DNA from: Rhodanobacter sp. LX-99
GTDB taxonomy: Bacteria > Pseudomonadota > Gammaproteobacteria > Xanthomonadales > Rhodanobacteraceae
Length of the DNA: 64,000 nucleotides
NCBI RefSeq assembly: GCF_018599185.1
Contig: NZ_JAHFVL010000001.1
Span: forward strand, 1,178,001 to 1,242,000
Reading direction: 5' to 3'
Part shown: positions 2,792 to 29,875 of the stretch, piece by piece
Numbering within the stretch: position 1 is the first letter of the stretch
How the letters are laid out: each line of letters starts with the position of its first letter
Made by a program: the position numbers and the translations under genes
Notes under the pieces: generated by a model
The model's database searches: none
Seen by the model: only the letters and a program-made list of their open reading frames with translations
What the model was told of the DNA's origin: nothing

Positions 2792-2841
2792 GAGAGTTAC
2801 TATGATATAAATTATGCATCCACGTCCAGAGGCCGGCTTGC
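2792..2841. promoter_or_regulatory. AT-rich divergent promoter region (permease / racemase)
   Basis: The 50 bases between the divergent permease and racemase genes are strikingly AT-rich for this genome, with overlapping -10-like hexamers on both strands (TATGAT on the plus strand near 2801; TATCAT and CATAAT on the minus strand). No clear -35 boxes are seen. This is the most likely place for the cluster regulator to act. Confidence 0.45.
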
Positions 2842-3831
2842 ATGCAGACCGAGGTTCGCCACGAACGCTGGGAGCTCGCCGCGCCATTCGTCATCGCGCA
2901 CGAGACCTACCTGCATGCCGACGTCATCGTGGCAACGCTGTCGTGCGATGGCGCCGTCGGCCGCGGCGAATGCACGCCCACCGCGTTCTACGGCGAGAGC
3001 GTGGGCGGCGTGATGGAGACCGTGCGAGAACTGCTCGCCCGCCTCGCCCGCGGCGAGTCATGGGACCGCATCCACGATCGCGTGCCAGCCGGCGCCGCGC
3101 GCAACGCGGTCGACTGTGCGTTCTGGGATCTGCGCGCGAAACTGGCGAAGCGGCGTGTCTGGGAACTGGCCGGCGTCCCCGCCCCGGGCCAGGTGCGCAC
3201 CGCGCAGACCATCAGCGTGGGCGAAGCGGCGCAGCAGGCGGACAAGGCGCGCGCGATCGTCGCCACCGACGGCGATGGCGCCCTGATCAAGCTGAAACTC
3301 GATGCACACGACATCGTCGCCCGCGTCGCGGCCGTGCGCGACGCCGCTCCGGCCGCGACCCTGATCATCGACGCGAATGAATCCTGGGACCCGGTGCTGC
3401 TCGACGGCGTCATGCCTGCGCTGCAGGCCGCGCATGTCGCGATGGTCGAGCAGCCGCTGCCCGTGGGCAAGGACGACGCGCTGGCACGGATCGAACGCCG
3501 CGTGCCGGTCTGCGCCGACGAATCGGCCCACGTCAGCGCCGACCTCGACGCGCTGCGCGGCCGCTACGACCTGGTCAACGTGAAGCTGGACAAGACCGGT
3601 GGCCTGACCGAGGCGCTGCGCATGACTGCCCGCGCGCGCCAGCTCGGTTTCGGGTTGATGGTGGGCTGCATGGAAGGGACGTCGCTCGGCATGGCGCCAG
3701 CGACGCTCGTCGCCGGCGCTGCACGCTTTGTCGACCTCGATGGCCCGCTCCTCATCGGTCGTGACCGCGACCCGGGCCTGCACTACCAGCGCGGCCTCGT
3801 CTCGCCACCCAGCGCGGCGCTGTGGGGTTGA
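2842..3831 (+). CDS. dgcA: Dipeptide epimerase / N-acetyl-D-glutamate racemase (DgcA-like)
   Basis: This 329-aa enolase-superfamily protein has the muconate-lactonizing layout: a capping domain (1-115) and a TIM barrel. The catalytic set is complete: KLK with K150/K152, metal ligands D177, E203 and D226 (DANES, VEQPLP, ADES), and the second base K248 in VNVKLDKTGG. Paired lysines on opposite faces are typical of racemases such as L-Ala-D/L-Glu epimerase. Because a DUF1611 (DgcN) gene lies in the same operon, the better match is DgcA, which converts N-acetyl-D-glutamate to N-acetyl-L-glutamate in the described D-Glu catabolic route. A muropeptide-dipeptide epimerase role remains possible. The next gene starts 29 bases after the stop. 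Confidence 0.85.
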   Translation: MQTEVRHERWELAAPFVIAHETYLHADVIVATLSCDGAVGRGECTPTAFYGESVGGVMETVRELLARLARGESWDRIHDRVPAGAARNAVDCAFWDLRAKLAKRRVWELAGVPAPGQVRTAQTISVGEAAQQADKARAIVATDGDGALIKLKLDAHDIVARVAAVRDAAPAATLIIDANESWDPVLLDGVMPALQAAHVAMVEQPLPVGKDDALARIERRVPVCADESAHVSADLDALRGRYDLVNVKLDKTGGLTEALRMTARARQLGFGLMVGCMEGTSLGMAPATLVAGAARFVDLDGPLLIGRDRDPGLHYQRGLVSPPSAALWG

Positions 3832-20011: not shown

Positions 20012-20059
20012 CCCCATCCCAAAACCCTCCCCTGCGCGCAGGGAGGGTTGGGGTGGGGT
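20012..20059. repeat. Dispersed GC palindrome, copy 2
   Basis: The gap between the DUF6600 gene and trmB carries CCCTCCCCTGC-GC-GCAGGGAGGG with outer arms (CCCCATCCC / GGGGTGGGG) that extend the hairpin. It ends about 20 bases before the trmB ATG, so it may also terminate the upstream transcript or affect trmB translation. Confidence 0.7.
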
Positions 20060-20078: not shown

Positions 20079-20789
20079 ATGCCCACGATCGATTCCCCCG
20101 ACCACACCACCCCTGAATACATGCGCCGCATCCGCAGCTTCGTGCTGCGCGAAGGACGCATGACGCCGGCGCAGCAACGCGCGTTCGACACGCTGTGGTC
20201 GCGCTTCGGCATCGACTATCGGGGCACGCCGCACGACTTCGCCGCGAGCTTCGGCCGATCGGCGCCGCTGGTGCTGGAGATCGGCTTCGGCAATGGCGAG
20301 GCGCTGGCCTGGGCCAGCGAGCACGACCAGGCGCGCGACTTCATCGGTGTCGAAGTGCACGGTCCCGGCGTGGGCCGGCTGATGAACGCGCTGGCTGCAC
20401 GCGACGCCGGCAACGTGCGGCTGTACAAGCACGACGCGGTGGAAGTGCTGCAGCACGAGATCGCTCCCGCCGCCCTGGCCGAAGCGCGCATCTGGTTCCC
20501 CGACCCGTGGCACAAGAAGCGCCACAACAAGCGTCGCCTGATCCAGCCCGAGTTCGTCGCCCTGCTCGCCTCGCGCATGGCTCCGAACGGCCTGCTGCAC
20601 CTAGCCACCGACTGGCAACCCTACGCCGAGCACATGCTCGAGGTGATGGAAGCCGCCCCCGCCTGGCGCAACCAGCTCGGCCCCGGGCAGTACGCCGAGA
20701 AACCCGAGTGGCGCATCGAGACCCACTTCGAGCGGCGCGGGCTGAAGCTGGGGCATGGGGTGTGGGATTTGCTGTATCGGAAGATCTGA
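20079..20789 (+). CDS. trmB: tRNA (guanine-N7-)-methyltransferase
   Basis: This 236-aa SAM-dependent enzyme makes m7G46 in tRNA. Seen: [11 protein letters not shown] near the N-terminus, the SAM-binding [11 protein letters not shown] (about 67-77), [13 protein letters not shown], and the family signature [18 protein letters not shown], followed by [10 protein letters not shown]. Length is normal. The upstream gap carries a palindromic repeat and no clear Shine-Dalgarno. Nothing in the context suggests anything other than a housekeeping role. Confidence 0.96.
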
Positions 20790-20871
20790 GCGAAGAGCGA
20801 CCCCACCCCAACCCTCCCCCTGCGACCGAAGGAAGTCCCTTGTGGGCAAGCAGGGGAGGGGGCAAGACGCG
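20787..20871. repeat. Dispersed GC palindrome, copy 3 (interrupted)
   Basis: This copy begins at the trmB stop with GAGCGAAGAGCGACCCCACC and has CCCTCCCCCTGC and GCAGGGGAGGGG arms separated by a 26-base loop (around 20824-20849). The loop looks like an insertion into the usual 2-3 base centre. Confidence 0.65.
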
Positions 20872-20912
20872 CTCCGGCCCGGCTCCCTTCCAGCAAGGGC
20901 ACCTGCGATTCT

Positions 20913-20951
20913 GCTCCTCCCCCTGCTGGCAGGGGGAGGCTGGGAGGGGGT
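20913..20951. repeat. Left 39-bp inverted copy flanking the DUF559 gene
   Basis: These 39 bases (core CCTCCCCCTGC-TG-GCAGGGGGAGG) are the exact reverse complement of 21334-21372. They abut the stop codon of the DUF559 gene, which shares base 20951. They belong to the same palindrome family as copies at 13.75, 20.0, 21.4 and 28.2 kb. Confidence 0.85.
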
Positions 20952-21298
20952 CAGGCCTTTGACTCTTCTTCCAGTACCCGAAAAATCTCCGCTACCACGT
21001 CATCCGTGCGCAACAGCACGTCGTCATTCCAGAATCGCAGCACGCGATAGCCCTCACGCTGCAAGGCTTCGGTGCGCCGCTGGTCGTACGCCAGTGCATC
21101 GAGGTGCTGTCCGCCATCCAGCTCGACCACCAGCCGCGCCGGCACGCAGACGAAGTCCACGATATAACCGGCCAGCGGATACTGGCGACGGAACTTGTGG
21201 CCGTCCAATTGCTGCCGGCGCAGGAAATACCACAGGCGGCGTTCCGCGTCGGTGCTGTTGTTGCGCAAACGGCGGGCATTGATCCATATACGCTGCAT
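20951..21298 (-). CDS. DUF559 (Vsr-like) endonuclease-domain protein
   Basis: This 115-aa protein is a single DUF559 domain, a PD-(D/E)XK nuclease relative of the Vsr mismatch endonuclease. The likely active-site residues are D48 (YIVDFV), E59 and D61 (VVELDGGQH), with H65 and a late VLRFWNDDVL motif. The N-terminal NARRLRNNSTDAERRLWYFL block is typical of the family. GAGG about 8 bases upstream of the ATG is a modest Shine-Dalgarno. The gene is precisely framed by perfect 39-bp inverted repeats, one touching its stop and one 35 bases before its start, suggesting it moves or is maintained with that repeat. Its cellular role is unknown. Confidence 0.85.
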   Translation of the reverse strand: MQRIWINARRLRNNSTDAERRLWYFLRRQQLDGHKFRRQYPLAGYIVDFVCVPARLVVELDGGQHLDALAYDQRRTEALQREGYRVLRFWNDDVLLRTDDVVAEIFRVLEEESKA

Positions 21299-21333
21299 GG
21301 CTGAGCCTCTTCCGATCTGAGGCGAAGAGCTTT

Positions 21334-21372
21334 ACCCCCTCCCAGCCTCCCCCTGCCAGCAGGGGGAGGAGC
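21334..21372. repeat. Right 39-bp inverted copy flanking the DUF559 gene
   Basis: This is the exact reverse complement of 20913-20951. Upstream context GATCTGAGGCGAAGAGC (21315-21331) resembles the sequence at the trmB end (GATCTGAGCGAAGAGC), showing that the family consensus extends beyond the palindrome core. Confidence 0.85.
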
Positions 21373-21385
21373 AAAGCGTCGTACT

Positions 21386-21470
21386 CCATCCCCTGCGCAC
21401 AGGGTGAGGGCTGATCGCTGTGCTCCCTCCCCTGCGTAGCAGGGGAGGGTCGGGGTGGGGTTGCTCTTGG
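21386..21470. repeat. Dispersed GC palindrome, copies 5-6 (tandem)
   Basis: A degenerate copy (CCCCTGCGCACAGGGTGAGGG, 21390-21410) is followed by a full copy with CCCTCCCCTGC-GTA-GCAGGGGAGGG and the GGGGTGGGGTTG outer arm (21422-21462). Counting 20.8 to 21.5 kb, five copies cluster around the DUF559 gene. Confidence 0.7.
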
Positions 21471-21605
21471 CCTCCGGTTCACCAGCAACCTTGCTGCGCC
21501 GCTTATACTCACGGCCATCCACCCAGGGACGAATCGTCGCAGCGTGAAGCTTCCACTGCCCCATCGTATCCACCGCAGCCAGCTGCTCCGCAGGGACGTC
21601 AGCTA

Positions 21606-28230: not shown

Positions 28231-28288
28231 CTTTGCTCCCTCCCCTGCTGGCAGGGGAGGGTTGGGGCGGGGTTGTTCTTCGCCGCAA
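28230..28288. repeat. Dispersed GC palindrome, copy 8
   Basis: Right after the exporter's stop, GCTTTGCTCCC leads into CCCTCCCCTGC-TG-GCAGGGGAGGG, then TTGGGGCGGGGTTGTTCTTCGCCGC. This copy and the one at 21.42 kb define the longer consensus of about 55 bases. Confidence 0.75.
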
Positions 28289-29817: not shown

Positions 29818-29839
29818 ACGGGAAACTCCATGGTGCAAT

Positions 29840-29875
29840 CCTCTCCCCAACCCCTCTCCCGGAGGGAGAGGGGCT
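29840..29875. terminator. GC hairpin between convergent genes
   Basis: CCCCTCTCCC (29851-29860), GGA, GGGAGAGGGG (29864-29873) forms a perfect 10-bp-arm hairpin between the convergent permease and ABC operon ends. A CTCTCCCCAACC prefix relates it to another widespread GC repeat type. It may act as a bidirectional terminator, though no T-run is present. Confidence 0.5.

Follow-up and report, generated by a model that had tools for sequence, protein, structure and literature searches.

DUF559 nuclease genes framed by inverted triplex-type repeats: a candidate REPIN-like element in Rhodanobacter and related bacteria

Results

The DUF559 locus and its repeats

The window (the whole 64,000-nt stretch of Rhodanobacter sp. 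LX-99 DNA analysed here) carries a DUF559 gene for a protein of 115 aa (20951-21298, minus strand), flanked by trmB (20079-20789) and a permease gene. The reverse complement of positions 21334-21372 is identical to 20913-20951 over all 39 nt, and over a wider 45 nt the arms (20912-20956 and 21329-21373) are still 96% complementary. The downstream arm runs into the stop codon and the upstream arm lies 35 nt from the ATG, so that the earlier note on this DNA was accurate in its account of the repeats and their placement. Its description of each arm as a palindrome holds for the hairpin and is incomplete, as a mirror-symmetric, G-rich tail is added. With tails on their hairpins, the arms have a direction. 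They read CTCC...GGAG followed by the tail, and a strict triplex-motif finder calls both with 0 mismatches: the downstream end (20916-20951, plus strand, hairpin 20916-20939) has its tail towards the gene and over the stop codon, and the upstream end (21334-21369, minus strand) also has its tail towards the gene.

Outside this pair is a second one. On the right, a motif called by the strict finder (21425-21461, plus strand) has its tail directed off the gene, and the stretch 21442-21471 is 90% complementary to 20790-20819. The outer left copy (20801-20863, minus strand) was recognized by eye, from an inverted repeat (I2) and from an insert pattern; its loop is widened by a short insert at about 20824-20849, and it receives no call from the strict finder. 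A degenerate hairpin of the motif family (21386-21409, direct-repeat family D3) sits between the two right-hand motifs. Further strict calls are a double-tailed copy before trmB (20014-20057), a dispersed GCAG-type motif (28238-28273, plus strand) and a dispersed CTCTCCC-type motif (29839-29873, minus strand), the last being of the type that flanks the second DUF559 gene of this genome. There are seven strict calls in the window, two of them being the two strands of the double-tailed copy, against 0, 0, 0, 1 and 0 in five block-shuffled windows, in line with the earlier claim that the arm family occurs elsewhere in this stretch.

A search of the genome finds two DUF559 genes. The second (locus L002) is likewise framed, with the hairpin type CCCCTCTCCC instead of CCTCCCCCTGC. 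That one arrangement recurs in the genome with dissimilar sequences gave the earliest indication that its architecture, rather than its letters, is conserved.

The insert in the outer left loop has its own distribution. About 24 nt long (GACCGAAGGAAGTCCCTT, then a G run), it occurs in loops and tails of triplex motifs in the window (20824-20849) and at loci L113, L118, L119, L125, L132, L135, L137, L138, L365 and L369, with further cases at L046, L371 and L388. It is also present within an unrelated palindrome family (TAGGAGCGCACCCTG...), as if targeting hairpins. The insert pattern matched 20 distinct contexts, most of them, though not all, inside hairpins as judged by eye.

The protein

The 115-aa protein matches the DUF559 family (PF04480) with an E-value of 1e-41. 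An AlphaFold2 model built from 49 sequences has a pLDDT of 89.8, and the nearest folds to it are 3hrl, which is a DUF559-like protein of solved structure, and the catalytic domain of the homing endonuclease I-Bth0305I (3r3p, TM 0.68/0.78); the fold match to Vsr (1vsr/1cw0) is weaker (E 0.03-0.06). Comparison of the DUF559 profile with structures gives the same two entries, with E-values of 2.7e-41 for 3hrl and 3.6e-4 for 3r3p. Fourteen columns are invariant in the 49 sequences, among them E19, D48, E59, D61 and H65. By family profile and predicted fold, the protein is thus a DUF559 member of the PD-(D/E)XK type, similar to Vsr and to homing endonucleases. YcjD, the Escherichia coli DUF559 member, had already been grouped with Vsr by profile (PMC1189080). 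In Caulobacter, cells without ScmA, a methyltransferase, show an SOS response that has been attributed to the DUF559 protein VsrA, and VsrA has been proposed to be a mismatch-repair enzyme (PMC12907096). Assignment to a defence system was considered and dropped, the PADLOC overlap being weak only (Hhe, E 4.3e-4; DpdF, E 9.6e-4).

Framing of DUF559 genes

The inverted architecture is specific to DUF559 genes. For each gene, the 200 bases on one side were compared with the 200 bases on the other, and the best inverted match gave the score of the flanks. A score of at least 16 is reached at 88 of 107 DUF559 loci, compared with 15 of 2126 shifted windows of equal size from the same loci, and a score of at least 25 at 64 of 107 compared with 2 of 2126; these are the scored members of a set of 111 (four with short flanks were left out), which is biased towards relatives of the window's protein, since L032-L111 were found by likeness to it. 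Together with the shuffled windows, the shifted windows rule out chance as the source of the inverted arrangement.

A wider sample was drawn across Pseudomonadota, where 145 of 398 genomes have a DUF559 match. From it came 69 loci (29 returned by the search tool and 40 picked by hand from the listed matches), of which 68 were scored. An inverted pair is present at 44 of the 68 with 400-base flanks and at 41 with 200-base flanks. Control genes from the window's family are almost never framed in this way: with 400-base flanks the count is 1 of 27 for ParE and 0 of 27 for Vsr, and with 200-base flanks it is zero for both (27 of 30 were scored in each set, three with short flanks being left out). 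The earlier note had proposed such a comparison with other small genes, and its outcome is the one that the note anticipated. DUF559 genes without palindromes, which it named as evidence to the contrary, do exist in part, since 24 of the 68 loci lack the pair. Overall, the original observation is confirmed, and it is larger in extent than first reported.

The motifs are also consistently directed. At DUF559 genes, the nearest strict motif has its tail inward in 127 of 139 cases upstream and in 138 of 150 downstream, and a tail-inward strict motif stands on both sides at 103 of 219 loci, a number that includes repeated views of the trmB site. When consecutive motifs lie 150-1500 nt apart, the pair is tail-inward in 96 of 107 cases enclosing DUF559 and in 2 of 29 cases not enclosing it, with some overlap among the loci counted. 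Motifs less than 150 nt apart in the fetched DUF559 loci are mostly tail-outward (69 of 112), meaning that many elements have compound arms like those of the window (20801-20863 and 21425-21461).

A few loci have unusual features. In Legionella anisa (L075, ~2830-3490), a DUF559 gene has an inverted arm of 147 nt and is possibly a recent copy; two loci of genome G349 (L154 and L233) have flank scores of 98.5 and 84.5, with unusually long and well-matched arms that are possibly recent as well. Weak DUF559 matches occur in open frames of ~1500-2250 aa in several genomes of the family, perhaps representing fused domains.

Design of the repeat

Each arm consists of a hairpin with a pyrimidine 5' arm, as a rule a further 2-3 bases, and then the G-rich tail. 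This tail repeats the 3' arm of the stem in mirror order, G standing over G and either A or T over A, which is the pairing code of a purine-motif (reverse-Hoogsteen) triplex. In 240 arms, taken only from the 131 loci with inverted flanks, the mirror reading is perfect in 177 and the direct reading in 108. With tails swapped between loci, the mirror score averages 0.658 (sd 0.010), down from 0.848, and for the 101 distinct arm/tail combinations, compared with shuffles, the z value is 7.4 for the mirror and 1.9 for the direct reading. Where the stem has A, the tail has A or T at 84% of 490 sites. The code is kept where a second hairpin stands between stem and tail: 16 of 31 such arms are perfect mirrors compared with 5 of 31 for the direct reading, and their mirror mean is reached by 0 of 500 shuffles. 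At a threshold of 85%, the short-linker mirror code does not fit 60 of the 240 arms, of which 29 also have no second hairpin.

Judged by their sequence, the arms share the design of the intrastrand triplex motifs known as BoxC, PIT or TM, and not that of the GTAG REPs. All of the variants seen here probably form one family with the motif of Holder et al. 2015 (PMC4666352). According to that source, one G/C-rich triplex motif is present in more than 260 bacterial genomes and is associated with instability; the folding of a G/C-rich motif as a triplex in solution has also been studied.

Copy number and matched variants

Motif copy number is linked to the presence of DUF559, a relation on which the earlier note had made its idea depend. 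Copies were counted with a loose motif pattern in 117 genomes of the family. The median is 37 in the 73 genomes with a strong DUF559 match, 0 in the 39 without, and 2 in the five with weak or broken matches only. Within genera, the difference is positive in every one of the 13 mixed cases, and it is attained in 0 of 5000 permutations stratified by genus. For ParE the trend within genera is borderline, being attained in 154 of 3000 permutations (p 0.43 without stratification), and for Vsr it is weaker (408 of 3000; p 0.08 without stratification). Exceptions occur in both directions, with at least 10 copies in 5 of the 39 genomes lacking DUF559 and 0-1 copies in 5 of the 73 possessing it. Within the window's genus, a query made of one P3/P2 doublet (see below) and its flanks, with 13 candidates scored per genome, gave at least 12-23 matches in the 13 genomes with DUF559 at the trmB site, compared with at least 0-20 in the 17 without (Fisher p 0.0003 for 12 or more matches).

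The motif variants match the genes that they flank. Arm similarity tracks DUF559 similarity at 32 loci (rho 0.44), a value that 0 of 500 permutations of arms within genera attain (mean 0.165, maximum 0.421). On a tree of 199 domains, which has few columns and many open forks, GCAG-type arms require 6 changes compared with 13.6 after shuffling (0 of 500 as low). Both of these figures are inflated by pairs that are inherited neighbours.

Gene-less doublets

The core CCCTGC-N0-8-GCAGGG occurs at 48 places in the window's genome, compared with 2 for a reversed control. Of 18 core places that were fetched, 9 contain no strict motif, 3 contain one and 6 contain a pair; every pair is tail-inward, with 21-42 nt between the motifs. 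In genome G083, 7 of 7 strict pairs are tail-inward and 12 of 20 sites hold single motifs. In G086 (20 sites), the sole pair closer than 150 nt is direct, and one tail-inward pair is 205 nt apart. Dispersed inverted doublets are therefore a feature of the window's genome and of G083, not of G086.

Each doublet in the window's genome combines one P3 motif (CCTCCCCCTGC, tail GGGAGGGGGT) with one P2 motif (CCCTCCCCTGC, tail GGGGTGGGGT). Gene-carrying elements of the window's DUF559 clade display the same two end types: among 23 distinct end pairs, 13 have P3 upstream and P2 downstream, one has the reverse order (sign test p 0.002) and nine have ends of the same type, the window's own element (P3/P3) being among the last. 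An inner GCTYTT lies close to the tails in 19 of 23 and 21 of 23 doublets, and in 11 of 11 and 9 of 11 elements at the trmB site. The loci L390-L409 were retrieved for their resemblance to a single doublet, which selects their end types in part, and 17 of the 23 doublets came in this way. A comparison of inner sequences by profile, distorted by an offset, did not separate the two ends: the P3 side of the doublets matched the left-end profile in 19 of 23 cases and the right-end profile in 20 of 23, and the P2 side matched neither (0 of 23 for each). Gene-less doublets and gene-carrying elements thus have ends in common (P3 plus P2, with GCTYTT), as in the pairing of a MITE with its autonomous relative, and to judge from these sequences the doublet looks like an element minus its gene.

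Site states and turnover

The gap between trmB and the permease gene was compared in 30 of the 45 genomes of the genus, to which the relatives L032 and L033, with their matching gene order, connect the window; 13 are filled and 17 are without DUF559. Twelve of the filled sites have one direction and one (L114) is flipped. Three others, examined by eye, keep one doublet and have no DUF559 gene (L129, L138 and L141), and L138 resembles L132 minus everything between two direct motifs. In genome G029 three copies of the unit stand in tandem (read in L291). Filled, empty, flipped and tandem states show that there is turnover. At the trmB site, DUF559 looks to have been mostly inherited in place, which means that moves are rare. 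Apart from the tandem triplet, DUF559 copies within one genome are only 36-71% identical (up to four per genome, nine genomes). No target-site duplication was read at the trmB site or at the doublet site L304, filled and empty alleles being too diverged at the junction, and no excision intermediate was identified in the loci examined. One trmB site without DUF559 (L123) contains a different insertion, ~300 nt long, whose ends are inverted and which begins near GAGAGCCTGCTTATGATCTCCAAGT.

A second intergenic site was read in 30 loci (L360-L389). A P3/P2 doublet is called strictly at both ends in seven of them and at the P2 end only in three; some loci have other hairpin repeat types, and in 5 of 30 the gap is just 23 nt. 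The hairpin repeat families in this gap differ between species, and it is perhaps a hot spot for repeat insertion.

E. coli K-12 carries triplex motifs, and its ycjD gene is annotated as DUF559; no strict motif is found beside ycjD in this strain. By eye, the locus (L271, 5030-5830) shows a degenerate hairpin at the stop codon and a BoxC-like copy ~150 nt downstream, and it has the look of an element in decay. In 3362 of 5426 genomes there is a place that covers 80% or more of the ycjD region. The comparison of empty sites in E. coli gave none: two genomes lacking ycjD (L272 and L273) carry an efflux operon there, after fabI, and the candidate empty site in H40 (L274) was rejected as a different place altogether. 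The control genomes of the PF04480 search show no E. coli, despite the annotation of ycjD in K-12.

Discussion

A nuclease with cognate triplex ends

The explanation that we favour, and consider reasonably probable, is that the unit is a small element with triplex ends and a cognate nuclease of the Vsr/homing type, similar to REPIN/RAYT systems and working by a different chemistry. Its layout would be a triplex motif with the tail inward, the DUF559 gene, and a second tail-inward motif, often within an outer pair, and the scattered gene-less doublets would be its non-autonomous relatives. At a replication fork, or in some other single-stranded stretch, the G-rich strand may fold into the hairpin with its third strand; the cognate nuclease would recognize this fold and cut beside the motif. 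Repair by copying, or recombination between repeat copies, could then spread, flip, duplicate or remove the unit, so that the nuclease would move or maintain the repeats by its cutting. A broader proposal, which we advance tentatively and hold to be nearly as plausible as its opposite, is that DUF559 nucleases define a new class of element, mobile or resident, whose ends form triplexes. The nuclease would recognize its cognate fold on single-stranded DNA and copy gene-less doublets around the genome with the help of host repair, and the BoxC, PIT and TM repeats would be the non-autonomous descendants of such elements.

The main rival to this is that DUF559 is a repair enzyme of the host, a structure-specific processing nuclease that makes triplex-rich genomes tolerable. 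Genomes rich in repeats would keep the gene, and its flanks would be regulatory or simply tolerated. Such a role would cover the copy-number link, the long vertical retention at the trmB site, the single divergent copies and the Vsr-like fold, and it agrees with the SOS role and proposed mismatch-repair function of VsrA in Caulobacter (PMC12907096). It leaves unexplained why the gene lies inside a tail-inward pair, why the motif variant tracks the nuclease clade, and why dispersed doublets have the same two end types and inner sequences, and for these reasons we regard it as unlikely. Less likely again is that the nuclease gene is passive cargo, or a target, of repeats moved by another enzyme or by replication slippage. 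Repeats of the triplex design are indeed reported with local instability (PMC4666352), yet in the fetched loci the content of tail-inward pairs is almost exclusively DUF559, the ParE and Vsr genes of the same family are unframed, and the Y1 transposase domain, the family searched for, is missing from the window's genome.

Two further explanations concern the repeats themselves. The conserved fold might be a G-quadruplex rather than a triplex, since 151 of 180 short-linker arms have a four-run G3 motif; only 1 of 31 second-hairpin arms has this motif, although the mirror code is still kept in them, and at most sites an A in the stem goes with A or T in the tail, which makes it quite improbable that a quadruplex was the fold conserved. 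It is hardly credible that the flanks serve a small gene as hairpin terminators or as regulatory structures in its RNA. Genes often end in stem-loops and the downstream arm does touch the stop codon, but the motif stands inverted on both sides, the window's arms, as read in the sequence, are not followed by a T-run, and the control genes do without such motifs; in addition, earlier work cited by Holder et al. found the E. coli motifs to be without promoter or terminator activity (PMC4666352).

Repeats of the BoxC/PIT/TM design, so far without a known mover or associated protein, are here tied to a specific nuclease family. The link to DUF559 yields cognate pairs that can be tested and a possible mechanism for the reported instability of the repeats, and it opens a direct way to test what DUF559 proteins do, YcjD of E. 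coli and VsrA of Caulobacter among them. To our knowledge, there is no earlier repeat-spreading system built on a repair- or homing-type nuclease and a DNA triplex instead of a transposase, and this one, if true, would be the first of that kind.

Comparison with known systems

Homing endonucleases are a nuclease family that spreads its own gene, and I-Bth0305I (3r3p) is related to the window's protein by profile (E 3.6e-4) and by fold (TM 0.68/0.78). It differs in its setting, since no intron or intein is seen at the window's unit, which lies between repeats in intergenic DNA. Vsr resembles the window's protein in fold, and E. coli YcjD has its published profile link to Vsr, while the motif frames none of the 27 Vsr genes scored.

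Among repeats, the closest in design are the BoxC/PIT/TM sequences (Holder et al. 2015, PMC4666352), which share the purine-motif design, the intergenic location and the variability between strains. They also share the inverted pairing of two types: the five inverted pairs of E. coli K-12 always join type A with type B, as reported there. The difference is that the same source reports no association of its motifs either with mobile elements or with any class of neighbouring gene, and that DUF, endonuclease and Vsr never occur as words in its main text, whereas the motifs described here form the two ends of a unit with DUF559. Among the open-licence papers listed by full-text searches, no title or abstract opening connects DUF559 with these repeats; subscription papers may hold such a connection. 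CGTC REPs, as described in PMC3733652, are similarly palindromic repeats without a known transposase, and have other stems and tags.

In architecture, the unit resembles REP/REPIN sequences and their RAYTs (Bertels & Rainey 2011, PMC3116915; Di Nocera et al. 2013, PMC3733652). In both cases an enzyme gene stands between inverted palindromes, inverted doublets are dispersed, and the repeat variant is matched to the enzyme variant; RAYT copies within one genome are also divergent (PMC3116915), as are the DUF559 copies at 36-71% identity. Of the earlier suggestion of a REP-type mobile unit, this architecture therefore stands (inverted ends, doublets, matched variants and divergent copies), the design of RAYT-type REPs does not, and mobility driven by the nuclease is inferred rather than observed. 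A RAYT or REPtron can be rejected for the window's unit, since the enclosed gene is DUF559, PF01797 has no match in the genome and there is no GTAG at the foot of the palindrome. In place of the HUH tyrosine transposase there is a PD-(D/E)XK nuclease, and in place of the GTAG tag there is a mirror third strand.
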